NCBI GenBank assembly: GCA_900313905.1
Contig: OMTG01000076.1
Coordinates: 1-34,640 of the forward strand
Length of the DNA stretch: 34,640 nucleotides
Origin: an uncultured Actinomycetes bacterium
GTDB taxonomy: Bacteria; Actinomycetota; Coriobacteriia; Coriobacteriales; Atopobiaceae
Direction: 5' to 3'
Translations under genes and position numbers: made by a program
Notes under the pieces: generated by a model
What the model saw: only the letters and a program-made list of their open reading frames with translations
Told to the model about the DNA's origin: nothing
Database searches by the model: none
Shown: one piece after another, positions 2,051 through 16,648 of the stretch
Layout of the letters: each line of letters opens with the position of its first letter
Position numbering within the stretch: the stretch's first letter is position 1

Positions 2051-2209
2051 GGGACACCTCGCTTGCTCTTGATGGGGGACGGGATGAATCTCTCGCTATG
2101 CTACCCAGATGCGCGGATTTTACGCTTTCATCTTTGCGGATGCTCCGGGGAGAGATTTTGCCCGGCGGTGATGCTACCCTGAAATGCTGCAATGTCTGGA
2201 AGGATGGCT

Positions 2210-2806
2210 ATGGGCATACCCCTGCTTCTGCATGCCTGCTGCGGGCCCTGCTCGCTCGAGCCGGTGAAATATCTGCGCGAGGAAGGCTTCGAGCCGACCA
2301 TCTGCTGGACCAATCCGAACATCCAGCCGAAAGCCGAGCATGACCGGAGGCTCGGGACGCTCATGTCCTGGGCACAGGATGCGGCGCACATCCCTGTCAT
2401 CATTGCAGACGACCGGCGCGACCTCTGGGAGAGGAAGGCTGCCCCCTGCGGATTCGAGCGGGAGGCGCGCTGCCGCGCCTGCTACACGGTACGGCTCGAG
2501 GAATCCTGCCGGATAGCCCAGGCGCAGGGCTTCCGCTACATCTCGACGACGCTCGTGGTCTCGCCCTATCAGCTCTTCGATGCCTGCTATGAGGTGCTCT
2601 CGAGGCTGGCGCCCCGCTACGGGCTCGAGGAGGTCTGGCGCGATTTCCGGCCCCATTATCCGGAATCGGTCACGGATTCGCGGGCGCTGGGGATGTATCG
2701 GCAGAACTATTGCGGCTGCCGCTTCTCTGCAGCAGAGGCAGCAATCGAGCGGCATGAGGCACGCGATGCCCGCAAGGCCGCCCGCCAGTCCGCAAAGGCT
2801 TCCTGA
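2210..2806 (+). CDS. queH: Epoxyqueuosine reductase QueH
   Basis: QueH reduces epoxyqueuosine to queuosine at tRNA position 34. It is the iron-sulfur alternative to QueG. Seen here are the hallmark HACCGPCS motif at residues 8-15 with the adjacent cysteine pair, RCRACYTVRL around residue 90, and NYCGCRFS near residue 166. About 198 residues is normal for the family (old name DUF208). ATG codons occur at 2192, 2204 and 2210. Only 2210 has a well-spaced ribosome site (GGAAGG, 6 bases upstream), so I chose it. queA follows after 44 bases, so the last and second-to-last steps of queuosine synthesis sit together. Confidence 0.93.
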   Translation: MGIPLLLHACCGPCSLEPVKYLREEGFEPTICWTNPNIQPKAEHDRRLGTLMSWAQDAAHIPVIIADDRRDLWERKAAPCGFEREARCRACYTVRLEESCRIAQAQGFRYISTTLVVSPYQLFDACYEVLSRLAPRYGLEEVWRDFRPHYPESVTDSRALGMYRQNYCGCRFSAAEAAIERHEARDARKAARQSAKAS

Positions 2807-2850
2807 GCGATCGATGGTGCGGCCCGCCTGTTGGGGCCTGAGAAGGAGAC

Positions 2851-4023
2851 ATGATCTTGATGCGTACTGACGATTTCGACTATCCGCTGCCTGACGAGCT
2901 CATCGCACAGGAGCCGGCAGATCCGCGCGATTCCTGCCGGCTCTTCGTGCTCCATCGCGATACCGGAGAGCATGAGTACAGGATCTTCACCGATATCGCA
3001 GACTACCTCGAGCCGGGCGACCTCCTGGTCGCGAACAGGACCCGCGTCATGCCGGCACGCCTCGTCGGCCGCAAGCGCCAGACCGGCGGCGTCTCGGAGA
3101 CCCTGCTGCTGAAGCGGCGCGAGGACCTCGATCCTCTGGGCCGCGTCTGGGAATGCCTCGTGAACCCCGGGAAGCGCCTGAAGCCCGGCAATGTCGTGGA
3201 ATACCGTCCGGGAGGCGCCCATGCCCCCGAGACGGCACCGGTCGTGCTCACAGGCGAGATCGTCGACTTCGTCGATGACAGCAGGGGAGGGCGCATCGTG
3301 CGCTTCGAGCCGGCAGAGGGCCTCACGCTCGACGAGGCGATGCACAAGGCGGGGCATGTTCCCCTGCCGCCCTACATCACCCAGTACGAAGGCGATCCGG
3401 AGAAGTACCAGACGGTCTACGCGATGCATGAGGAGCATTCGGCGGCAGCGCCGACGGCCGGCCTCCACTTCACGCCCGAGCTCATCGAGCGCCTCGAGAA
3501 GAAGGGGATTGGCTGGAAGACGGTCGAGCTCGAGGTCGGCATCGACACGTTCCGCCTCGTCGAGGAGGACGATCCGACGAAGCATGTGATGCACACCGAG
3601 CGCTACCATGTGCCGCAGGATGTGGTCGATGCAGTGCATGCCACGAAGAAGGCAGGCCATCGCGTGATCGCGGTCGGCACGACGAGCGTGCGTTCGCTCG
3701 AGAGCGCCTTCGATCCCGAGGCACCGGTGGCAGATCCCCCGATGGTGGCACAGCGCTTCGAGGATGCGCCTGATTCGGCCAAGGTTGCCGGCAAGGGCGA
3801 CCTCGTGGTCCGCGAGAATGCGACGACGAACCTCTACCTGATGCCGAGCTCCACCTACCACGTCGTGGATGCCCTCATCACGAACTTCCATGTGCCCCGC
3901 TCCACCCTCATGATGCTCGTCTCCGCCTTCGCGACCCGCGATGAGATCATGGATGCGTACCAGGATGCCATCGACCACCGGTTCCGCATGCTGAGCTTCG
4001 GCGATGCGATGCTGATCATCTAG
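2851..4023 (+). CDS. queA: S-adenosylmethionine:tRNA ribosyltransferase-isomerase QueA
   Basis: QueA transfers and isomerises the ribosyl group of AdoMet onto preQ1 in tRNA, giving epoxyqueuosine. The 390 residues show the family hallmarks: DYPLPDELIAQEP near the N-terminus, LLVANRTRVMPARL around 57-70, GHVPLPPYI, SAAAPTAGLHFTPEL, the ELEVGIDTFRLV segment, HTERYHVP, AVGTTSVRSLES and LITNFHVPRSTLMMLVSAFA. It is somewhat longer than E. coli QueA (about 356 residues) because of an internal insertion after the HVP segment. The start is fixed by AAGGAG directly upstream of the ATG. It is probably cotranscribed with queH and is closed by the terminator at 4152. Confidence 0.96.
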   Translation: MILMRTDDFDYPLPDELIAQEPADPRDSCRLFVLHRDTGEHEYRIFTDIADYLEPGDLLVANRTRVMPARLVGRKRQTGGVSETLLLKRREDLDPLGRVWECLVNPGKRLKPGNVVEYRPGGAHAPETAPVVLTGEIVDFVDDSRGGRIVRFEPAEGLTLDEAMHKAGHVPLPPYITQYEGDPEKYQTVYAMHEEHSAAAPTAGLHFTPELIERLEKKGIGWKTVELEVGIDTFRLVEEDDPTKHVMHTERYHVPQDVVDAVHATKKAGHRVIAVGTTSVRSLESAFDPEAPVADPPMVAQRFEDAPDSAKVAGKGDLVVRENATTNLYLMPSSTYHVVDALITNFHVPRSTLMMLVSAFATRDEIMDAYQDAIDHRFRMLSFGDAMLII

Positions 4024-4151
4024 CCATCCCGCGCAGCGGGAAGAAGCTCCTCGGGCCAGGCGGCTCAGGCGGCTGCTTGGCCTGCTTATGGGGCTTGCCG
4101 GCAGCCGAGATCGGCTGGCCCCTACACGGCGCGAATCGGCTGAAGACGAAG

Positions 4152-4185
4152 GAAGCCCTGGGGCTTGGGCCCCAGGGCTTCTCTT
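4152..4185. terminator. Intrinsic terminator between queA and the convergent coiled-coil gene
   Basis: A perfect 13-base stem (GAAGCCCTGGGGC paired with GCCCCAGGGCTTC) is followed by CTCTTGTGT on the plus strand and by CTTCGTCTTC on the minus strand. It lies in the 192-base gap 4024-4215 between convergent genes. The rest of that gap holds only short imperfect hairpins. Confidence 0.8.
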
Positions 4186-4215
4186 GTGTCCCTTCGATCC
4201 TGTGCGAGATCTCGC

Positions 4216-5502
4216 CTAATGTGTGAGGAACCAGATGACAAGGAGGATGACGGCAGCGACGAGGATGATGAGGGCGACGAAGGTGATCCGCTGCTTTCTG
4301 GTCGAGGTGCGGAGCTGCTTCTCCGAGCGGGCAAGGTCGGAGACCGCACGCTTCTGGAGATCGACCAGCCGCTGCTGCTCGTTGACCGATTCGGCGAGCT
4401 TCCGCGTGACCTCAGGGGTGTCATGGATGTCCTGCGCCTCGTCGAGGAGCTTCTGGGCAGCCTCGATGCGGGCCTTTGCCGCATCCTTGTCCTTGTTCGC
4501 ATCCCTCATGGCCATCTCGCGCTGCACGACATCGTTATCGAGGGTGGCCTCTTCGGTCTGGAAGGCCTGATAGCACTTGTCGTATTCGGCCTTGCGCTTC
4601 TTGGCTTCCTCGCGGGCCTCCTCGGCAGCCTTCTCGGCAGCCTCGAGCGCCTGCTGCTGGTTCCAGAGATGGCGCTGGGCAGCGTCGACGTTCTTCTGGG
4701 CCTCCTGTGTCACGGTCGGGATGTCTGCTTTCGTGGATTCGAGATGGGCCTTCTCGGCGGCGATCTCCTGCTCCATGCGGGCTATGGCGCCAGCGTCGGC
4801 ATCCGGCTTCAGCGTCTCAAAGTCGCTCGTGAGCTTGCGCAGGCGGGCCTGGGCATTGTCGTAGGCCTTGTTGGCGGCAGAGATGCGCTGCTCGCGGCGG
4901 GCCTGGGCGTCTGCGGCGTCGGACTGGGCGGCCTTCGCGTTCTTCTTGGCCTCGGCGAGGAGCTTGGCGGTGTCGTCGGCACGGCCCTTGGTGGACTCCA
5001 TCACGTTCTGGTAGGGCTGAATCGCCTCTGCATGCTCGGCCTTCATCTTCGCAAGGTCGTCAGCGAGCTTGTCGTGCTCCTTCTGGAGCTCGGCGAGGCG
5101 CTCGTCTGCAGCCTTCACCGCACGCTCGGCATCCGTGCGCTCCTTGGTCTGCTCTGCCACGATCGCGTCATAGCTGCGGGCGATATCGATGCGGTGATCG
5201 AGGGTCTTCTTGTCCTCGTTCAGGGCAGCCTCGGCCTTCTTCAGCTCGTTGCGGGCATTCGAATGCTCCTTCGAGGCCTGCCGCACCTTCCTCATGGCAG
5301 AATAGCCGCCGGTGACGGGAGCCATGGGTCCCGCACCTTTCTTCCTGCCCTTCTTGGCGCCCTCCTGGCCCTGGGCCGCAGGCGCCTTCTTCGGGCGGGC
5401 ACGGTGCGCAGCCCTGCCCTTGGGTGCCTCATGGCGGCCATGGCGGGAGGCCTTCCTGCCTGCGCCCTCTTGCTTCGTATCATCATCTGCGGTATCACGC
5501 AT
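4216..5502 (-). CDS. Long coiled-coil protein with C-terminal membrane anchor, unknown function
   Basis: About 428 residues from the start chosen here. The first 60 or so are strongly basic and Ala/Gly/Lys-rich (RHGRHEAPKGR, GAKKGRKKGAG). About 300 residues of Ala/Glu/Lys/Gln heptad-rich sequence follow, typical of an extended coiled coil. The C-terminus is one hydrophobic helix (TFVALIILVAAVILLVIWFLTH) with no signal peptide, so it looks tail-anchored with the coiled coil in the cytoplasm. The frame is open to an ATG at 5592, but GAGGAG lies 10 bases before the ATG at 5502, so that start is preferred. The basic end could contact nucleic acid or envelope polymers. I do not recognise the family. 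Confidence 0.7.
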   Translation of the reverse strand: MRDTADDDTKQEGAGRKASRHGRHEAPKGRAAHRARPKKAPAAQGQEGAKKGRKKGAGPMAPVTGGYSAMRKVRQASKEHSNARNELKKAEAALNEDKKTLDHRIDIARSYDAIVAEQTKERTDAERAVKAADERLAELQKEHDKLADDLAKMKAEHAEAIQPYQNVMESTKGRADDTAKLLAEAKKNAKAAQSDAADAQARREQRISAANKAYDNAQARLRKLTSDFETLKPDADAGAIARMEQEIAAEKAHLESTKADIPTVTQEAQKNVDAAQRHLWNQQQALEAAEKAAEEAREEAKKRKAEYDKCYQAFQTEEATLDNDVVQREMAMRDANKDKDAAKARIEAAQKLLDEAQDIHDTPEVTRKLAESVNEQQRLVDLQKRAVSDLARSEKQLRTSTRKQRITFVALIILVAAVILLVIWFLTH

Positions 5503-5657
5503 GATCTTCTGGCTCCTCGATGCATCTTGGGGTGAGTGCCCAATGAGAACATTCTGTACCATTTTGCGTCCAGAATGTAGCCAGATGGGCAAGCTGCTCC
5601 ATCATTCTCCCGATGTTGTGGCGGAAAAGTCCAGAATTCTTCCACTCACAAGAAAAT

Positions 5658-5687
5658 ATGTCACTCTCATAGCCTTTTTGTTAAAGT
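5658..5687 (+). promoter_or_regulatory. Probable ptsH promoter (-35 ATGTCA, extended -10 TGTTAAAGT)
   Basis: ATGTCA (4/6) is followed after 18 bases by TAAAGT (4/6), preceded by TGT as an extended -10. Initiation near 5694 would leave a leader of about 58 bases before ptsH. The same TGTTAAAGT box occurs before tRNA-Leu(CAA) at 17595-17603, which supports it. Confidence 0.5.
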
Positions 5688-5751
5688 AATATCAAATGCG
5701 CATAGCGGGGTGGTCCCGCGCGCCTCAATGTCGTTCTTTAAGGAGAAAACC

Positions 5752-6027
5752 ATGGTTTCCAAGCAGACGACCATCGTCAACGCCACTGGCCTTCATGCCC
5801 GTCCGGCTTCCCAGTTCGTTGCAGCTGCAAAGAAGTTCCCCTGCAACGTGACCATCCAGGACCTCACCAAGGGCTCTGCACCGGTCAACGCGAAGTCCAT
5901 CATGATGATCCTTGCTGCTGGTCTTGCTGCTGGCACCAAGGTCGAGGTTGCCTGCGACGGCGACCAGGAGCAGGAGGCTCTCGACACCCTCGTTGCCCTC
6001 ATCGACAATGGCTTCGGTGAGAAGTAG
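5752..6027 (+). CDS. ptsH: Phosphocarrier protein HPr
   Basis: Cytoplasmic phosphocarrier of the sugar phosphotransferase system, passing phosphate from Enzyme I to the sugar-specific EIIA proteins. The 91 residues contain the active-site motif ATGLHARPA with His15. The regulatory-serine region NAKSIMMILAAG has Ser49, which aligns with Ser46 of other HPr proteins after a short upstream insertion and is the HPr kinase site in Gram-positives. AAGGAG lies 6 bases before the ATG at 5752; the frame is open further upstream but has no ribosome site there. No ptsI is adjacent. Codon choice is strongly biased towards common codons, as expected for an abundant protein. Confidence 0.96.
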   Translation: MVSKQTTIVNATGLHARPASQFVAAAKKFPCNVTIQDLTKGSAPVNAKSIMMILAAGLAAGTKVEVACDGDQEQEALDTLVALIDNGFGEK

Positions 6028-6952
6028 CCTGGCACCCCAAGATCACAAAGGGTTAGCAGCAACAGCCCGATGCCCTGAAGGCGTCGGGCTTTGCTTGTTT
6101 GACCTGGATGGAACCATTCTGGATCACGTGAAGGGCATATCGCCCCGTGTGGTCGCGGGGCTCCAGGCGCTCCGCAAGGCAGGGGTTGCGACCGCTGTCT
6201 GCAGCGGCAGGCCCCGTGGGCTGGTCCGTGGCTGCGTCACGGATGCCGGCTGCATGGACTATTTCGTGACGGCAAATGGCGCCTGCGTGACCGACAAGGA
6301 CCTCAATGTCCTGATCCGCCGGCCTATCCCGCAGAAGGACGCCCTTGCGCTCTATGAGAGGCTGAAGCCGCTCAAGGCTTTCTGGCGCATCCATACTGGC
6401 GAGGATACCTATGCCGAGATGGGCGGGTTCTCCTATATGGCGGCAGGTACGCCTGATGCGGGAGGCAAGGGCCTTGTCCCGCTTGTGAAGAAGCTCTTCT
6501 CCTTCAAGACGGGGCGGATGCCTGCATGGCACAACCGGCCCAGCGCGCTTCCTGGTCTCCGACGTGCCACCGATGGGGTGGAGAAGATGGACTGCTCCTT
6601 CCCATCTCCTGAGAACATGGCGGTCGCCGAGCGCATCATGGAGCAGCAGGGCATCTGGGAGTACGCCGAGATGGGGGAGGCCGAGCTTGAGGTCACCCTC
6701 AAGGGCGTCACCAAGGGCACGGGCGCCGAGGTCCTGGCATCATATCTTGGGGTTCCTATCGAAAGGACCGTCTCGTTCGGCGATGGCGGCAACGATCTGC
6801 CGCTGATTGGCCATGTGGGGCATTTCGTCGCAATGGGCAACGCCACGCCGGAGCTCAAGGAGCAGGCCGACGAGGAGTGCCCAACGATCGAGGAAGACGG
6901 CGTCGCCGTCTGGATCGAGCAGGTGCTGGCAGAAGCGGCATCGTCCCGCTGA
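6008..6952 (+). CDS. Cof-type HAD-IIB phosphatase
   Basis: A cytoplasmic haloacid-dehalogenase phosphatase, probably acting on sugar phosphates or similar small molecules. All four HAD motifs are present: DLDGT (nucleophile and acid-base Asp), a motif II Ser in AVCSGRP, Lys in LKGVTKG, and GDGGND near the C-terminus. The cap between motifs II and III is the alpha/beta type of the IIB class. The start is uncertain. No ATG lies just before the first strand (GLCLFDLDG); the in-frame choices are ATG 6008 and GTG 6017, both inside the end of ptsH, or TTG 6095, which would cut the first strand. I chose 6008, implying a 20-base overlap with ptsH. The ptsH terminator hairpin falls inside this 5' end. 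Confidence 0.85.
   Translation: MASVRSSLAPQDHKGLAATARCPEGVGLCLFDLDGTILDHVKGISPRVVAGLQALRKAGVATAVCSGRPRGLVRGCVTDAGCMDYFVTANGACVTDKDLNVLIRRPIPQKDALALYERLKPLKAFWRIHTGEDTYAEMGGFSYMAAGTPDAGGKGLVPLVKKLFSFKTGRMPAWHNRPSALPGLRRATDGVEKMDCSFPSPENMAVAERIMEQQGIWEYAEMGEAELEVTLKGVTKGTGAEVLASYLGVPIERTVSFGDGGNDLPLIGHVGHFVAMGNATPELKEQADEECPTIEEDGVAVWIEQVLAEAASSR
6064..6100 (+). terminator. ptsH terminator embedded in the HAD gene 5' end
   Basis: AGCCCGATGCC pairs with GGCGTCGGGCT (11 bases, one G-T pair, 5-base loop) and is followed by TTGCTTGTTT. It lies 37 bases after the ptsH stop and would cut most transcripts before the HAD phosphatase, giving high HPr and low phosphatase from one promoter. Confidence 0.7.
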
Positions 6953-8119
<1,167 letters not shown>

Positions 8120-8212: not shown

Positions 8213-9706
8213 ATGACAGGCATGGCTAAGAAGAGAGAAGAGGGGAAGGGCGCCCCCACTTCCGGCGTTGCACGCTGGAATGCCTCAGAAGGAACAGGCA
8301 GCGCTCAGAAAAGGAAGGCTCCCCAGAAGAAGAGGCTTCATGGCAACGCACGGCGCTGGGCATCCACGCTTGTGGTGCTCGCAGCCGTCTGCATCGCCTG
8401 CGTGATCGCATTCACGCCGCTTTCGAGCTCCATCAACCAGGGCCTCGATATCCAGGGTGGCGTATCGGTGATCCTCACCGCTTCGAAGTCGGATGGATCG
8501 GCTCCGACATCGGATGAGATGGCCACGGCCACCTCGATCGTGCAGAGCCGCGTGAACTCGCTGGGAGCCTCCGAGGCGACCGTGCAGCAGCAGGGCTCGA
8601 ACTCCATCCTCGTGCAGATCCCAGGAGCGACCGATGCAGAGGAGGCCGTGCGGACGATCGGCCAGACCGGCCAGCTCGAATTCGTGCGCCTCGACGATAT
8701 CGGCGATGCTGATGCCCTGCTGAAGCTGGGCAATGGGCAGGAGGATGTGAAGCTCGCCGAGGGCTCCTACACCGCCTTCATGGACGGCTCCTACATCAAC
8801 GGCACCGAGGTCCAGCAGACCCAGTCGGGCGAATATGTCGTGAACATCACCTTCAACAGCGAAGGCGCCAAGATCTTCGGCGACGTGACGAGCGAGCTTG
8901 CCCCCACGAAGGGCCAGATCGCCATCGTCCTCGACGGCGTCGTGAAGAGCGCCCCTGCAGTCCAGTCGGCCATCACGGATGGCAAGGTCTCGATCTCGGG
9001 CAACTTCACGCTTGATTCCGCAAAGAGCCTGAAGACGGTCCTCGATTCCGGGTCGCTTCCCGTCACCCTGACCTATTCGGAGAGCCGCGTCGTCGGACCT
9101 ACGCTTGGCCAGGACTCCCTCCATCAGGGCATCCTTGCCATCGCGGTGGGCGTCGCGCTTGTCGTGGCCTACCTCTTCGTCTTCTATCGTGGCCTCGGCA
9201 TCCTGACGCTCGGCTCGCTTGCCTGCTTCGCCGTCCTCTATCTGGGGCTTCTGGCAATCCTCTCGAAGAATGGGCTCTTCAGCCTGACGCTTCCGGGCCT
9301 TGCGGGCATGGTGCTCACGACCGGTTCGGCTGCAGACTCCTCGATCCTGGTCCTCGAGCGCTTCCGCGAGGAGATCAGGATGGGCAAGTCGGTCAAGAAT
9401 GCCTCCATCACCGGCACGAAGCACGGCATCCGCACGTCGCTCGATGCTGATATCGTGACGCTCGTCTCCGCCATCGCGCTCTTCGCCTTCGCTGCTGGCA
9501 CCGTCAAGGGCTTCGGCCTCACGCTTGCCTTGGGCGTCGTCTGCGACATCGTGACGATGTTCTGCTTCAAGGCACCAGCGCTGCGCCTGCTTGCACAGTC
9601 CTCCATCGAACGCCATCCCGGCTTCTGGGGCATCCGCGAAGACCTCGAGGAGGCCGAGCGTGTCCGTGTCGAGCGTGGCGTGAAGGGAGGTGTGGCCCAT
9701 GCGTAG
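8213..9706 (+). CDS. secD: Protein translocase subunit SecD
   Basis: SecD, with SecF, is an RND-type membrane complex that uses the proton gradient to pull preproteins through SecYEG. The 497 residues have a basic cytoplasmic tail of about 50 residues and a first membrane helix (TLVVLAAVCIACVIAFTPL). The GLDIQGGV motif at about 77-84 and the periplasmic P1 domain (IVLDGVVKSAPAV) follow, and then five C-terminal helices. The signature TTGSAADSSILVLERFREE is near residue 368. ATG 8213 and ATG 8222 are both possible starts. The gene overlaps secF by 8 bases. yajC, often found between tgt and secD, is absent here. Confidence 0.95.
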   Translation: MTGMAKKREEGKGAPTSGVARWNASEGTGSAQKRKAPQKKRLHGNARRWASTLVVLAAVCIACVIAFTPLSSSINQGLDIQGGVSVILTASKSDGSAPTSDEMATATSIVQSRVNSLGASEATVQQQGSNSILVQIPGATDAEEAVRTIGQTGQLEFVRLDDIGDADALLKLGNGQEDVKLAEGSYTAFMDGSYINGTEVQQTQSGEYVVNITFNSEGAKIFGDVTSELAPTKGQIAIVLDGVVKSAPAVQSAITDGKVSISGNFTLDSAKSLKTVLDSGSLPVTLTYSESRVVGPTLGQDSLHQGILAIAVGVALVVAYLFVFYRGLGILTLGSLACFAVLYLGLLAILSKNGLFSLTLPGLAGMVLTTGSAADSSILVLERFREEIRMGKSVKNASITGTKHGIRTSLDADIVTLVSAIALFAFAAGTVKGFGLTLALGVVCDIVTMFCFKAPALRLLAQSSIERHPGFWGIREDLEEAERVRVERGVKGGVAHA

Positions 9707-10652
9707 CCACTTCAGCAAGGAGATCCAGTTCATGAAGCACAGGAGGGCCTTCCTGACCCTTTCCTGCATCCTGATCGTCCTCTCGATTGTCGGCATCTGC
9801 GTCCGCGGCCTTGTCTTCGGCATCGAGTTCATCGGTGGCACCGAGATCGACTTCCGTGAGACGGGCGACATCACGATCGAGCAGATGCGTGACGCCTTGG
9901 CGGGCGCCGATGAAGGTGAGGCGACCGTCCAGACGGCTGTGACCGATGGGCAGGCGGGCTTCCTGGTCCGCTCCGGCACGACCGACCCGCAGGTGGCCGC
10001 CAACCATGCCTCCCAGGTCGCCCAGACCCTGGGGCTTGCCGACGACTCCTACCAGGTCACGACCATCGGCCCTGACTGGGGAGCGGATGTCACCCGGTCG
10101 TCCCTCATCGCCTTCTTCGTTGCAATCGCTGCGATCATCGTCTATGTCTCGATACGCTATGAGTTCAAGATGTCGATCTCTGCCGTCATCGCCCTTGTGC
10201 ATGACCTGCTGATCACGATCGGCGTCTATGCCTGGACGCAGATGCCCGTCACCCCGAATGTCGTGGCGGCCCTCCTCACGATCATGGGCTATTCGCTCTA
10301 CGACACAGTCGTGGAGTTCAACCGCATCGACGAGAATGCGAAGCAGCTCTCTGACGGCGTGCACCACACCTACGACGAGATTGCGAACTTCTCGATCAAT
10401 GAGGTGATCGTCCGCACCATAAACACGACCATCACCTCGGTCGTCCCGGTCATCGCCATGCTCGCTATCGGCGGGTCCACCCTGCGCGATTTCGCCTTCG
10501 CGATGCTCGTCGGCGAGATTCTCGGCACCTACTCGAGCTTCGCGGTCGCATCCCAGATCCTCTGCATCTGGAAGGCACGGGAGCCCAAGTGGGCCAAGAT
10601 CGCTGCCAAGTATGGCTCTGGCGCACGGGTGACGAAGGCACCGGAGGTCTAG
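9699..10652 (+). CDS. secF: Protein translocase subunit SecF
   Basis: Membrane partner of SecD. The 317 residues contain a first helix (FLTLSCILIVLSIVGICV), the GIEFIGGTEIDF motif around 42-53, a periplasmic domain, and five further helices. The SecF signature appears as GYSLYDTVVEFNRIDEN near 197, where many homologues have SINDTVVVFDR. The ATG at 9699 lies inside the end of secD with GGGAGGTG at the right spacing, so the pair is translationally coupled. A GTG at 9690 is in frame but sits on that ribosome site. Confidence 0.95.
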   Translation: MRSHFSKEIQFMKHRRAFLTLSCILIVLSIVGICVRGLVFGIEFIGGTEIDFRETGDITIEQMRDALAGADEGEATVQTAVTDGQAGFLVRSGTTDPQVAANHASQVAQTLGLADDSYQVTTIGPDWGADVTRSSLIAFFVAIAAIIVYVSIRYEFKMSISAVIALVHDLLITIGVYAWTQMPVTPNVVAALLTIMGYSLYDTVVEFNRIDENAKQLSDGVHHTYDEIANFSINEVIVRTINTTITSVVPVIAMLAIGGSTLRDFAFAMLVGEILGTYSSFAVASQILCIWKAREPKWAKIAAKYGSGARVTKAPEV

Positions 10653-10657
10653 GCACT

Positions 10658-13600
10658 ATGGCTGGCCTCAAGGACAGCAGGCGCTGGGATGTGCTCCCGG
10701 GGGATGCTGCGGCCGAGGCGGAGCTTGCAGAAGCGCTGGACGTGCCACCTCTGGTGGCACGTGTCCTCATAGCCCGTGGCATCCGCACCGAAGCGGAAGC
10801 ACGGCGCTTCCTCGCTCCATCACTTGACCGCGACTGGCTCGATCCTTCGGTCATCCCGGGCATGGAGGAGGCGGCAGACCGTGTCGAGCGCGCCCTCGAT
10901 GCGGATGAGCATATCGCCGTCTTCGGCGATTTCGATGTGGATGGCATGAGTGCGACCTGCCTTCTGACCTTGGGCCTGAGGGCGCTCGGAGGCACGGTCT
11001 CGCCCTTCATTCCGAACCGCTTCGGGGAAGGCTACGGCCTCTCGAAGGAAGCGCTCGCCCGGGTGCAGGAGCAGGCGCATCCAGACCTCATCATCACGGT
11101 GGACAATGGCATAGCAGCAGGCGCAGAGGTCGCATGGCTCCTCGAGGAAGGGGTCGACGTCGTCGTGACGGACCACCATGAGCCGGGAGATCTCGTGCCC
11201 AAGGGGGTCCCCGTGACCGACCCGAAGCTCGAGGCAGGCTGCCCTTCGCGCGACCTTGCAGGCGCAGGCGTCGCGCTCAAGCTCGTGCAGGAGCTGGGGT
11301 GCAGGCGGGGAAATCCCGACCTCTGGCGGCACTATACCGAGGTCGCGACACTTGGCACCATCTCCGACATGATGGACCTCACGGGAGAGAACCGGGCGCT
11401 TGTGGCAGATGGCCTTGTGCGCATGCGCCAGACGGACCGCCCTGGCATCGTCGCTCTGGCTGCCACCTCTGGCGTGAAGCTCAACGAGGTGACGAGCGAT
11501 AGCCTGCCCTTCTCGCTCATACCGCGCCTCAATGCGGCAGGACGCATGGGGTCGACCGATGTGGCCTTCCAGCTCCTGCTCACGGACGATCCCAAGGAGG
11601 CCACACGCCTTGCCGGCAGGCTCGAGGCCATCAACAACGAGCGCCGCGAGATCGAGGCCTCGCTCACCGACGAGGCCATGGAGATGGCAGACGCCCTCTA
11701 TACCGGTGGGCGGATCATCGTCGTCGGCGGCGAAGGCTGGCATGAGGGAGTGAAGGGAATCGTGGCCTCCCGCATGGTGAACAGGTACCATGTGCCGGCC
11801 ATCCTCTTCACGATCTCGGACGGCGTCGCCCGCGGATCGGGCCGCTCGGTCGGCTCGGTCGACCTCTTCCATGCAGTTGAGCAGTGCTCCGACCTTCTCA
11901 TCCGCTTCGGTGGGCATGCCGGCGCGGTTGGTGTCACGCTCGATGCCGCGAACATCGATGCCTTCCGTGACCGCATGGAGGCGATCATGGATGCGCTGCC
12001 AGCCGAGCAGTTCGAGGATCGGGGCGAGGTCGCCGCTATCGTCGACCTGTCCGAAATCGACCTCGGCACGATCAATTCGCTCGAGATCCTCCAGCCCTTC
12101 GGCATGGGGAACAAGAAGCCGCTTCTGGGCGCCTGCGGGGTCATGATGAGAGGGAGGGCACGCGTCGGCACGAATGGGGACCATCTGCGGTTCGTTGCGA
12201 CCGATGGCACCCATGCGGTGCCTGCCATCATGTTCCGGACCCCGCATATCGAGAAGGCGGCCTCGTATGACGGGGCGGTGGACCTCGTCTTCGAGGCCGT
12301 GAACGAGACCTGGCAGGGCCGCACGAAGCCGAAGCTCATGGTGAAGGACATCCTCTACAGGACAAGCGATGCAGCACCAGAGGATGGCGGAAAGCAGCTG
12401 GCAGACGAGCTCTTCGACCGCTCTGCCGATGTGCTCTCTGCCCCTGAGCATCTGGGCATCGCCGAGGCGGAGAGCTTCATAACGAAGATGGTGGGGCTGA
12501 AGCGCCTGGCGGGAGGAGGGTGCCCGGTGAGCCTGGGCGAGATCCTCCAGATCCGTCCTGATGCAGAAGATCCCGATGTGGCCTCCCTTGCGCTCGTCGA
12601 GGCGGATGGGATGGCGGTCGGGCATCTCAGGAGCCAGATAGCGGCAGCCCTTGCCCCGTACGTCCTGGCAGGCGTCACGTATCATGCCGAGGTGCGCAAG
12701 ATCATGGTGGCGGCCCATGCAGATGAGCTCACAGCTGACATCCAGGTCATCCGCCAGACCGCACAGGCCTCATCGCCCACGCGGCAGGAGACGGGTGCCC
12801 AGGGGCGGCGCCAGGAGCTCTCGGAGCTTGGCCCAGATGCCCTCACGCGCGAGCTCTGCCGCACCTTCATAGGCGACCATGAGCTGCTGCCAGCGCAGCG
12901 CGAGGCGCTCCGTCTCCTCGCAGAAGGGAAGTCCTGCTTCTGCGTGATGGCGACAGGAAGGGGCAAGTCGCTCATCTTCCATGTGCATGCGGCCCGGATG
13001 GCGCTTGCCGAGCACAGGGCGTCGGTCTTCATCTATCCGCTGCGCGCCCTCGTGGCAGACCAGGCCTTCCACCTTTCGGAGGCCTTCGGCTCGCTTGGCA
13101 TGAGCGTACGGGTGCTCACCGGCGCAACGGAGAAGGATGAGCGGGAAGACATCTTCTCTGCCTTGGTGGATGGCGCCCTCGATGTGGTGCTGACGACGCC
13201 TGAGTTCCTCTCCATCCACCGGAAGCGCTTTGCTGAGGGAGGACGGATCGGCTTTCTGGTCGTCGACGAGGCCCACCATGCTGGCGCTGCACGCTCAGGC
13301 CAGCGCGAGGCCTATCTCGACCTGCCTGACATCCTCGAAGCGCTTGGGCATCCGAGCGCCCTGGCTGTGAGCGCCACGGCCTCCACGCCCGTAGCGAAAG
13401 AGGTCTGCCGGCTGCTCTCGATCCCGGACCAGCAGGTCCTCATCGACAGGACAGCCCGCACGAACCTCACCATTGATGACAGGCGCGAGCTGCGCGACCG
13501 CGATGCTGCGCTCGTGCACCTGGTCTCCTCGGGAGAGAAGTGCGTCGTCTATGTAAATTCGCGCGAGCAGTCCGTGAAGGAGGCGAGGATGCTCCGGCAT

Positions 13601-14323
13601 TGCCTGAGCGACCTCGCAGAGCATATCGGCTACTACAACGCGGGCCTCTCCCGTGCAGACCGCTCACGGGTCGAGCGTGCCTTCCGCGAAGGGGACCTCA
13701 CCTGCATCGTCGCGACATCGGCCTTCGGCGAGGGCGTCAACATCCCGGACATCCGCCATGTGGTCCTCTACCACATGCCCTTCAGCGAAGCCGAGTTCAA
13801 CCAGATGTGCGGACGTGCCGGCAGGGATGGGAAGCCCGCGACGATCCATCTGCTCTTCGGCAGCCGCGATGCCCGCATCAACGAGCGCATCATCTGCGCC
13901 CAGGCGCCGGAGCGGGAAGACCTCGTGGTGCTCTACAAGGTCCTCATGCACGAGAGCAGGGCCTCGAGGGCTGCAGGCTTCGATGGCAGCATCTCCCTCA
14001 ACAATGCGGACATCGCCGAGCTCTGCCGCGACAGCGACCATAAGACGAACATCGATGAGGGGGCTGTCTCGTCGGGCATCGGCATATTTCGGGAGCTCGG
14101 ATTCCTCACGACGAGTGGATATGGTTCGATGCGGCGTATACTCATGGCAATCGCACCGGCGCGCATGGATCTCGAAGCGTCCATCCGGTATCTCGAAGGC
14201 CAGCGTTCCCGCGAGGATTTCGGGCAGTTCCGGGACTGGATCCTCACCTGCACCGCACAGGAGATGCTGCACAACGTGTGCCGGCCGATCGTGCCACGCT
14301 TTGGCCAGACCGTCGACGGATAG
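10658..14323 (+). CDS. recJ: RecJ exonuclease fused to a RecQ-like DEAH helicase
   Basis: A 1221-residue fusion. The N-terminal half is RecJ, the 5'-3' single-strand DNA exonuclease. It has VFGDFDVDGMSAT (DHH motif I) around 87-99, VVVTDHHEPGD near 168, the DHHA1 RFGGHAGAVG near 419, and an OB-type region after about 490. A linker with an unassigned region (about 580-735) follows. The C-terminal half is a superfamily 2 helicase: MATGRGKS (Walker A) near 765, VVDEAHHA near 868, VSATAST near 905 and NQMCGRAGRDG near 1049, closest in style to RecQ. A winged-helix-like tail ends the protein. GGAGG precedes the ATG, which lies 6 bases after secF. The frame is continuous through the junction. It would couple unwinding with 5' resection. 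Confidence 0.9.
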   Translation: MAGLKDSRRWDVLPGDAAAEAELAEALDVPPLVARVLIARGIRTEAEARRFLAPSLDRDWLDPSVIPGMEEAADRVERALDADEHIAVFGDFDVDGMSATCLLTLGLRALGGTVSPFIPNRFGEGYGLSKEALARVQEQAHPDLIITVDNGIAAGAEVAWLLEEGVDVVVTDHHEPGDLVPKGVPVTDPKLEAGCPSRDLAGAGVALKLVQELGCRRGNPDLWRHYTEVATLGTISDMMDLTGENRALVADGLVRMRQTDRPGIVALAATSGVKLNEVTSDSLPFSLIPRLNAAGRMGSTDVAFQLLLTDDPKEATRLAGRLEAINNERREIEASLTDEAMEMADALYTGGRIIVVGGEGWHEGVKGIVASRMVNRYHVPAILFTISDGVARGSGRSVGSVDLFHAVEQCSDLLIRFGGHAGAVGVTLDAANIDAFRDRMEAIMDALPAEQFEDRGEVAAIVDLSEIDLGTINSLEILQPFGMGNKKPLLGACGVMMRGRARVGTNGDHLRFVATDGTHAVPAIMFRTPHIEKAASYDGAVDLVFEAVNETWQGRTKPKLMVKDILYRTSDAAPEDGGKQLADELFDRSADVLSAPEHLGIAEAESFITKMVGLKRLAGGGCPVSLGEILQIRPDAEDPDVASLALVEADGMAVGHLRSQIAAALAPYVLAGVTYHAEVRKIMVAAHADELTADIQVIRQTAQASSPTRQETGAQGRRQELSELGPDALTRELCRTFIGDHELLPAQREALRLLAEGKSCFCVMATGRGKSLIFHVHAARMALAEHRASVFIYPLRALVADQAFHLSEAFGSLGMSVRVLTGATEKDEREDIFSALVDGALDVVLTTPEFLSIHRKRFAEGGRIGFLVVDEAHHAGAARSGQREAYLDLPDILEALGHPSALAVSATASTPVAKEVCRLLSIPDQQVLIDRTARTNLTIDDRRELRDRDAALVHLVSSGEKCVVYVNSREQSVKEARMLRHCLSDLAEHIGYYNAGLSRADRSRVERAFREGDLTCIVATSAFGEGVNIPDIRHVVLYHMPFSEAEFNQMCGRAGRDGKPATIHLLFGSRDARINERIICAQAPEREDLVVLYKVLMHESRASRAAGFDGSISLNNADIAELCRDSDHKTNIDEGAVSSGIGIFRELGFLTTSGYGSMRRILMAIAPARMDLEASIRYLEGQRSREDFGQFRDWILTCTAQEMLHNVCRPIVPRFGQTVDG

Positions 14324-14332
14324 GAGCCACAT

Positions 14333-16648
14333 ATGGCAGAGACCAACGCTATTCCGAATGCGGACAACTGGCGTCTTCTGGAGGTCACCTGTTCGCGCTA
14401 CATGGATGAGGAGGCCTTGGCGAAGATTGGCCGGGCCTACCGATTCGCTGCCGAATTCCACAAGGACCAGCGCAGGCGCTCAGGAGAGCCCTACATCAAC
14501 CATCCTGTCGAGGTGGCGCTGATCCTCGCCGACAAGCTCAAGATGGACGAGGACTCGATCTGCGCCGCGCTGCTGCACGACACGGTCGAGGACACCCCCG
14601 CGACGCTCTCGGACATCTCCGAGCAGTTCGGGGATACGGTCGCCGAGCTCGTGGACGGCGTAACGAAGCTCACCTCGATCGAGGTCGACTCGATGGACGA
14701 GAAGCAGGCCCTGAACCTGCGCAAGATGTTCCTGGCGATGTCGAAGGACATCCGTGTCATCATCATCAAGCTCGCAGACCGCCTGCACAACATGCGGACG
14801 CTTGCGGCGCTTCCGCCCGACCGGCGCATCTTCAAGGCGCATGAGACGATGGATGTCTATGCGCCGCTTGCCGACCGCCTTGGCATCAGCTCCATCAAAT
14901 GGGAGCTCGAGGATCTTGCCTTCTACTACCTCGAGCCTGAGGAGTACCAGCGCATCGCCCGCATGGTGCAGGATTCCCGCGCCCAGCGCGAACAGGACAC
15001 CGACGAGGCCATCAAGGTCCTCGACGACGAGCTCAAGCGTGTCGGCATCCAGAACTTCCAGATCACGGGCCGCCCGAAGCATCTGTGGTCCATCTACCAG
15101 AAGATGCTGCGCAAGGACCTCGAGTTCTCTGACATCTATGACCTGATCGCCCTGCGCGTGATCGTGCATACGGTCGGGGAATGCTATTCGGTGCTCGGTG
15201 CCGTGCACTCGCTCTGGCATCCGCTCCCAGGACGCTTCAAGGACTACATCGCGACCCCGAAGGCGAACCTCTACCAGTCCCTGCATACGACCGTGATCGG
15301 TCCCGATGCCCGGCCCATCGAGATCCAGATCCGCACGGTCCAGATGCATGAGCAGGCCGAGTACGGCATCGCTGCCCACTGGCTCTACAAGAAGGCCGGC
15401 AACTCCAAGGGCCTCATGAGCGCGGATGACAAGGACATCGATTCTGCCATCAACTACATCAGGAAGAACCTCGAGTGGACGACCGAAGGCGACATCGACG
15501 ATGCGCATGAGTTCCTGAACAACCTGCGCGTCGACCTCTTCGAGGATGAGATCTTCGTCTTCACGCCGAAGGGCGAGGTCCTGAGCCTGAGGCGCGACTC
15601 CACCCCGCTCGATTTCGCCTATGCGGTCCATACGGAGGTCGGCAACCATTGCGTCGGGGCCAAGGTCAATGGCACCGTCGTGCCGCTCACCTATCGCCTG
15701 AAGATGGGCGACCGCGTGGAGATCCTGACGAACAACAATGCGAAGCCATCCCGTGACTGGGTGAACATCGTGGCCACCCCTTCGGCGCGCGCCAAGATCA
15801 GGAAATACTTCGCAAACGTGACCCGTGCCGACGATATGGAGACAGGCAGGACGGAGCTTGCTCACGAGCTCAGGAAGCGGGGGTATGGCATCTCGACGCC
15901 CCGCGTCACGAAGGCCTGCGAGAAGGTCCTGCCGCAGTTCGATGTCCATTCGACCGACGACCTGATGGCATCGATCGGCGCAGGCAAGGTCACAGCGAAG
16001 ATCGTCGCGAACCGCCTCGAGGAGATCCTCACCGAAGGCGCGGCGGAGGGCAATCCGCAGAGCCAGATGCAGGCTGAGCGCGAGAAGGAGATGCAGCGCG
16101 CCATCGAGGAGGACCGTCCCCTCATCAAGCCGCCAAAGCCGACGCGCGAGGAGCGCAAGAAGCGCTCCAACTGTGGCGTCATCGTGAAGGGCGATCCCGA
16201 TCTGATGGTGCATCTGGCACACTGCTGCAATCCTGTGGCAGGAGACGATATCGTGGGGTTCGTGACGAGGGGTCGGGGCGTCTCGGTGCATCGTGCGAAC
16301 TGCCCGAACGTGAAGAGCCTGATGGACCATCCCGAGCGCATGATTCAGGTCGAATGGGATACGTCGGGTGCCACGGAGTTCCAGGTCGAGATCGTCGTGG
16401 AGGCCGGAGACCGCATGGGGCTCCTCAAGGACGTGACGATCGCCATCAACGATTCGGGCGGCAACATCCTTTCCGCTGCCACCCAGACCTCCGATTCAGG
16501 CATCGCCCGTCTGCGCTTCCTCATCGCCATATCCGATGCAAGCATCCTGATGCCGCTTCTGGCCAATGTGAGCCGGGTGCCGTCGGTCTACGATGCACGC
16601 CGCATCAAGCCGGGCGAAGGATCCAGCCAGATGAAGTGGAGGGTGTAG
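14333..16648 (+). CDS. relA: Bifunctional (p)ppGpp synthetase/hydrolase Rel
   Basis: Makes and degrades the stringent-response alarmones. The 771 residues show the full long-RSH order. The HD hydrolase has HDTVEDT at 82-88, with the metal-binding site intact. The synthetase follows (SDIYDLIALRVIV near 265, EQAEYGIAAHW near 339), then a TGS domain (IFVFTPKGEVLSL onward, about 404-460). Next are a helical region, the Cys-rich zinc-finger segment (HLAHCCNP...HRANCPN, about 626-655) and a C-terminal ACT domain from about 679. Both active sites look complete, so bifunctional Rel is the natural reading. AGGAG lies 6 bases before the ATG, and the gap after recJ is 9 bases. Confidence 0.96.
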   Translation: MAETNAIPNADNWRLLEVTCSRYMDEEALAKIGRAYRFAAEFHKDQRRRSGEPYINHPVEVALILADKLKMDEDSICAALLHDTVEDTPATLSDISEQFGDTVAELVDGVTKLTSIEVDSMDEKQALNLRKMFLAMSKDIRVIIIKLADRLHNMRTLAALPPDRRIFKAHETMDVYAPLADRLGISSIKWELEDLAFYYLEPEEYQRIARMVQDSRAQREQDTDEAIKVLDDELKRVGIQNFQITGRPKHLWSIYQKMLRKDLEFSDIYDLIALRVIVHTVGECYSVLGAVHSLWHPLPGRFKDYIATPKANLYQSLHTTVIGPDARPIEIQIRTVQMHEQAEYGIAAHWLYKKAGNSKGLMSADDKDIDSAINYIRKNLEWTTEGDIDDAHEFLNNLRVDLFEDEIFVFTPKGEVLSLRRDSTPLDFAYAVHTEVGNHCVGAKVNGTVVPLTYRLKMGDRVEILTNNNAKPSRDWVNIVATPSARAKIRKYFANVTRADDMETGRTELAHELRKRGYGISTPRVTKACEKVLPQFDVHSTDDLMASIGAGKVTAKIVANRLEEILTEGAAEGNPQSQMQAEREKEMQRAIEEDRPLIKPPKPTREERKKRSNCGVIVKGDPDLMVHLAHCCNPVAGDDIVGFVTRGRGVSVHRANCPNVKSLMDHPERMIQVEWDTSGATEFQVEIVVEAGDRMGLLKDVTIAINDSGGNILSAATQTSDSGIARLRFLIAISDASILMPLLANVSRVPSVYDARRIKPGEGSSQMKWRV

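Follow-up and report, generated by a model that had tools for sequence, protein, structure and literature searches.

Does an open reading frame that joins a RecJ nuclease to a RecQ-like helicase encode a real single-chain enzyme, and if so, what would such an enzyme do and from what kind of ancestor might it descend? The question is raised by positions 10658–14323 (+ strand) of the window, as we call the whole 34,640-nucleotide stretch of coriobacterial DNA that was analysed. An earlier note, made from the sequence alone, had read here, in one uninterrupted frame, a complete RecJ and after it a complete superfamily 2 helicase, and this reading was borne out. The frame is single, unbroken and 1221 amino acids long; the enclosing ORF (10589..14323, +) is open throughout without an internal stop, with ATG 10658 as the likely start, and the RecJ (TIGR00644), DEAD and Helicase_C profiles all score over their cut-offs.

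The gene and its locus

The gene, its domains and its neighbours are as follows.

8213..9706, + strand: secD, neighbour in the standard recJ locus (PF22599/PF21760/PF02355)
9690..10652, + strand: secF, neighbour (PF02355, 3e-53)
10658..14323, + strand: recJ-helicase fusion gene, 1221 aa; its ATG lies 5 nt past the secF stop codon, and its end 9 nt ahead of the relA ATG
10748..12352, + strand: RecJ nuclease core, residues 31–565, with DHH 85–234 (PF01368), DHHA1 352–444 (PF02272) and RecJ_OB 461–564 (PF17768)
12473..12757, + strand: degenerate HIRAN domain, about residues 606–700, with predicted strands (E 0.088 in the window copy, strong matches in relatives)
12890..13393, + strand: helicase RecA-like domain 1, residues 745–912 (PF00270, DEAD, 1.6e-21), with Walker A ATGRGKS and DEAHH
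13508..13831, + strand: helicase RecA-like domain 2, residues 951–1058 (PF00271, Helicase_C, 9.3e-25), with TSAFGEG and QMCGRAGRDG
13904..14320, + strand: C-terminal winged-helix-like domain and tail, residues 1083–1221, with predicted winged-helix elements; the part of the helicase that is retained in PF10141 tails of Bacillota RecJ
14333..16648, + strand: relA/spoT, neighbour (PF13328, PF04607, PF02824, PF19296)

The order tgt, secD, secF, recJ fusion, relA/spoT is that of an ordinary recJ locus, and the fusion is thus the resident RecJ of the genome rather than an additional copy. No second RecJ was found in a search of the window's own genome. The queuosine genes queH, queA and tgt (window 2192–8119) lie upstream of secD-secF-recJ.

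An assembly or frameshift artefact as the source of the fusion has a probability close to nil. A stop or frameshift between the halves, named in the earlier note as the sign that would speak against a fusion, was not seen, and RecJ and helicase share one frame in each of the 62 distinct genomes of the class whose stretches were read, which excludes an error of sequencing or assembly. The same frame recurs in other classes and in Bacillota, and several of these genomes are single-contig.

The nuclease and helicase halves

Residues 31–565 match the recJ profile TIGR00644 with 466.2 bits (cut-off 396.9) and contain the DHH, DHHA1 and RecJ OB domains with their catalytic motifs; most of the catalytic residues are invariant in an alignment of 38 members of the class. 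The AlphaFold model of the window protein (pLDDT 88) matches the RecJ structure 5f55 with a Z-score of 49.3.

The C-terminal half is a helicase by profile, with PF00270 and PF00271 over the Pfam cut-offs, and the residues of Walker A, DEAHH, SAT, motif V and motif VI are invariant across the 38 aligned members. Its core is RecQ-like, as previously proposed: TIGR00614 matches with 178.9 bits, and structures of RecQ, WRN and BLM match model residues ~700–1191 with Z-scores of 24–27. DpdF and other helicase families were considered and rejected as weaker than RecQ (127 versus 179 bits). The likeness does not extend to RecQ proper. Both curated RecQ cut-offs are missed (TIGR00614, 178.9 against 219.8; TIGR01389, 178 against 640.2), no zinc-binding, RQC or HRDC family is among the Pfam matches of the 38 class members, and no cysteine cluster was found past motif VI of the fused helicase. 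In RecQ, an aromatic-rich loop couples the binding of single-stranded DNA to ATP hydrolysis. This loop, located after DEAH and of the CISQWGHDFRPEY type, is reduced in the fused helicase; its position reads DEAHHAGAARSGQREAY in the window protein, and all that is left of it in other members is FRPxY or HRPxY. A tree places the fused helicases from three sources (the class, Oleimmundimicrobium-type Actinomycetota and Bacillota) in one clan, set apart from free RecQ with 100/100 support. The helicase is one subfamily, close to RecQ in profile and structure and separate from RecQ proper.

The region between the halves

Residues 580–735 had been taken for a possible new coupling domain that matched neither family. 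The region corresponds instead to HIRAN (PF08797), which in the Pfam scan matches the homologous segment in 14 of the 38 class members (best 4e-16) and is found in distant relatives among the Bacillota and the Oleimmundimicrobium-type Actinomycetota (L134, 57 bits, E 1.8e-15; L093, 39.4 bits, E 5.4e-10). A new fold is ruled out by these matches in the class and beyond it. The window linker itself scores 13.1 bits, below the cut-off of 24.7 (E 0.088), and is a degenerate copy from which a motif around N-P-(Y/H)-D-x-N-A-I, kept in the relatives, has been lost. The structure prediction that had been suggested for the linker shows six predicted strands and one helix in the AlphaFold model. In many Coriobacteriales the HIRAN is deleted, with 13 to ~110 residues left. 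The linker is therefore a known module whose constraint has relaxed rather than a new coupling domain.

Distribution and coexisting enzymes

Within the class the fusion is near-universal: a match was obtained in 298 of 298 sampled genomes of Coriobacteriia. A genome that might have represented a true split of RecJ and helicase (G061) was rejected as such, its two matches stopping at the ends of two contigs; besides this one, G131 had matches on two contigs. In another genome (G007), secF is followed by a RecJ of 571 aa alone (L095/L072) and then by relA, and the fusion is retained in a sister from the same genus; this RecJ without a helicase is a natural deletion.

The suggestion that the fusion is characteristic of the lineage holds for its near-universal presence in the class and fails for exclusiveness. 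Full fusions were found elsewhere in the Actinomycetota, in four genomes of one Oleimmundimicrobium-type family and in one genome of another family, and the helicase was detected at E < 1e-42 in 20 of 199 sampled genomes (~10%) of one Bacillota phylum, that of a Desulfosporosinus genome; restriction to the class is ruled out by both groups. Twenty Bacillota stretches were read and comprised 17 full or near-full fusions, two motor-dead forms (L149 and L150) and one free-standing HIRAN-helicase (L148). The last is encoded, intact and downstream of a 311-aa frame, in the same genome (G721) that elsewhere carries the motor-dead RecJ fusion L149.

The earlier note had also asked whether free recQ is absent from such genomes. 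RecQ often coexists with the fusion: RQC-bearing free RecQ is present in 172 of the 298 class genomes, and a short RecQ (L002, G000:C141) with zinc-binding and HRDC domains and no recognisable RQC is encoded in the window's own genome. Loss of free recQ as a consequence of the fusion is thereby ruled out. Nucleases of the AddA/AddB type (PF12705) occur in 58 of 59 class genomes, and the fusion is therefore probably not the main double-strand-break enzyme and is unlikely to be the sole enzyme of end resection.

Decayed helicases and the tails of other RecJ proteins

Three Bacillota RecJ proteins (L149, L150 and L167) keep the layout of the fusion, but Walker A, DEAH and motif VI are gone, and they are inactive as judged by motif. 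L164 is reduced to the second RecA domain plus the winged helix (blastp 1e-19 to window residues 936–1190), and L165 and others continue the series of decay from there. PF10141 (ssDNA-exonuc_C), the C-terminal domain of Bacillus-type RecJ, falls on the same residues in the decayed proteins; in L150 it covers the winged-helix portion of the pseudo-helicase. Many seemingly unfused RecJ proteins of the Bacillota, including the PF10141 type of Bacillus and Staphylococcus, look like proteins that end in a decayed copy of the fused helicase. Such a resemblance was observed for PF10141 and other tails in L166, L158, L164, L165 and L214–L227, and two proteins of other Actinomycetota (L201 and L202) have RecJ tails of ~310 aa without a match to the helicase profile.

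Descent from the helicase has to be weighed against the possibility that tail and helicase share a winged-helix or Rossmann-like fold and nothing more, which we consider improbable. At E < 1e-3, a profile built from the second half of 87 intact helicases matched 26 of the 30 RecJ tails with a length of 150 aa or more; in so small a database the E-values are relative only. No reversed tail, used as decoy, had an E-value below 0.01, and when 1,993 open frames, drawn from all loci, were searched, every match was a RecJ or a helicase and none was unrelated. By hhalign, the intact helicases align to strict PF10141 tails with 94.6% probability (E 7e-8) and, by way of intermediates, with 99.9% (intact helicases to intermediates) and 98.1% (intermediates to PF10141); the C-terminal domain of intact helicases aligns to RecJ tails with 97.9%. 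The controls stay far lower, with reversed profiles at 0.2% or less and free RecQ against PF10141 at 0.9%, which speaks against a merely shared fold. So do the pseudo-helicases, direct intermediates with HIRAN and all domains in place, and the identical position of tail and helicase after the RecJ OB domain. What favours a shared fold is that direct matches of PF10141 to intact fusions lie under the Pfam cut-off and that the structural likeness of the tail model to helicases is middling, at Z-scores of only 6–7.5. PF10141 is the commonest Pfam match in the C-terminal domain of the intact fused helicases (7 of 38, best 1.8e-5, below the gathering score where one was printed); no PF10141 match was returned by Pfam for this domain of the window protein.

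The PF10141 tail model (pLDDT 89) matches the C-terminus of S. aureus RecJ (8y30, residues 559–756) with a Z-score of 17.2; next come winged-helix proteins and RecQ-type helicases, WRN among them, in their second half (Z 6–8, middling). On the full window model, the alignment of 8y30 covers residues 1..1177 (Z 46.5), and that of Deinococcus RecJ stops at 546. A PDB sequence search with the C-terminal domain of intact helicases returned weak winged-helix matches and did not find 8y30. For S. aureus RecJ a direct link from profile to sequence is therefore not significant; the helicase link to this protein rests on intermediates, profile-profile comparison and structure. In a RecJ tree made by a quick method, with weak deep branches, the fused, motor-dead, decayed and tail-less forms are scattered, a pattern that would agree with an old fusion followed by many losses without proving it. 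We regard it as likely that the RecJ-HIRAN-helicase chain is an ancient form of RecJ in the branch of Bacillota and Actinomycetota, and that many RecJ C-terminal domains of that branch, PF10141 included, are fossils of the motor that decayed repeatedly and in parallel into a binding domain.

Proposed function of the fused enzyme

A RecQ-type motor moves 3′-5′ and displaces the 5′-ended strand, which is the substrate of RecJ. By analogy, the fusion is somewhat more probably than otherwise a single-chain resection enzyme in which a 3′-5′ helicase feeds 5′ ends to RecJ, polarity and coupling being those expected of the two families. From an end or a gap, the helicase would move 3′-5′ on one strand and displace the complementary 5′-ended strand, which the tethered RecJ would degrade 5′-3′; with both travelling in one direction, 3′ single-stranded DNA would remain for RecA. 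Where intact, HIRAN would aid the placement of the enzyme on single-stranded DNA. The fusion would thus be a built-in counterpart of the RecQ and RecJ resection step of E. coli, made one step. According to a passage of PMC4846377 that cites Morimatsu and Kowalczykowski 2014, E. coli RecJ alone handles 5′ overhangs and RecQ is needed for blunt or 3′-overhang ends, which is the job a fused 3′-5′ helicase would do. In genomes for which AddAB or other helicases are enough, the motor would have decayed, and its end may have been kept for binding or docking. Several observations run counter to this reading: the loop that in RecQ links DNA binding to ATP hydrolysis is altered here, AddAB-type nucleases are present in nearly all class genomes examined, and the helicase half is dispensable, being absent in G007 and dead by motif in L149, L150 and L167.

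Two other functions were weighed. The chain could carry two engines with different jobs, the HIRAN-helicase acting as an HLTF-like remodeller of forks and gaps that is merely delivered with RecJ. HIRAN is the DNA-end module of HLTF in fork remodelling (PMC4666394), AddAB is present for break resection, and one HIRAN-helicase, L148, is encoded apart from RecJ; this stand-alone form falls inside the fused clan, however, so that its separation looks secondary, and RecJ and helicase remain fused although HIRAN has degenerated in this protein and has been deleted from many relatives. We hold such a division of labour to be unlikely. Less likely still is that the helicase half serves mainly as a scaffold or regulator, binding SSB, DNA or a partner, with motor activity of little weight. 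Its repeated loss or decay in Bacillota and its clean absence in G007 would fit such a role, as would the Deinococcus RecJ C-terminal domain, which binds SSB and HerA (PMC4846377, PMC4663267), but the invariance of the five motor motifs in 38 class members is not expected of a scaffold. A coupled resection enzyme remains the preferred reading.

Comparison with known systems

The window fusion and the RecQ and RecJ pair of the E. coli RecF pathway have in common a RecJ family nuclease, a RecQ-related superfamily 2 helicase of the 3′-5′ type and the expected geometry, in which the helicase exposes the strand that RecJ degrades. They differ in that the fusion is one chain with HIRAN between the halves and usually coexists with free RecQ, and in that its helicase, unlike E. 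coli RecQ, is without zinc, RQC and HRDC domains and the full aromatic-rich loop. PF10141-type RecJ (Bacillus, Staphylococcus, Lactococcus; 8y30) shares the RecJ core and a C-terminal domain whose profile matches the fused helicase at its RecA2/winged-helix end, whereas it lacks the first helicase domain, HIRAN and every motor motif (~760–820 aa against ~1200). WRN also unites a nuclease and a RecQ-type helicase, with the structural match given above, on one chain; its nuclease is a 3′-5′ DEDD enzyme unrelated to RecJ, and it has the RQC and HRDC domains that the fused helicase lacks. RecJ of Deinococcus and Thermus resembles the fusion in its core and in having a C-terminal domain that matters for function, but has no motor and binds SSB and HerA through that domain, for which no homologue was found by HHpred in 2015 (PMC4663267). 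DinG of S. aureus and B. subtilis, with its N-terminal exonuclease, is likewise a bacterial nuclease-helicase fusion, though of other families (XPD-type helicase and 3′-5′ exonuclease; PMC12345164).

Significance

A literature search, in which coverage of subscription papers was incomplete, found no report on RecJ-HIRAN, on RecJ-helicase fusions or on the origin of the RecJ C-terminal domain. Bacterial HIRAN domains fused to phosphoesterases or nucleases were remarked upon in the HLTF paper (PMC4666394), and the link of RecJ to HIRAN may therefore already have been noted; public domain databases probably already show the architecture of the fusion. The interpretation of RecJ tails as relics appears to be new, and would explain the uncharacterised RecJ C-terminal domain of well-studied Firmicutes as a helicase remnant. 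The fusion would be a naturally occurring form of the RecQ-RecJ resection step on one chain, so that point mutations in a single gene could test the coupling, and natural experiments are at hand in the form of intact, HIRAN-less, motor-dead and motor-less relatives.
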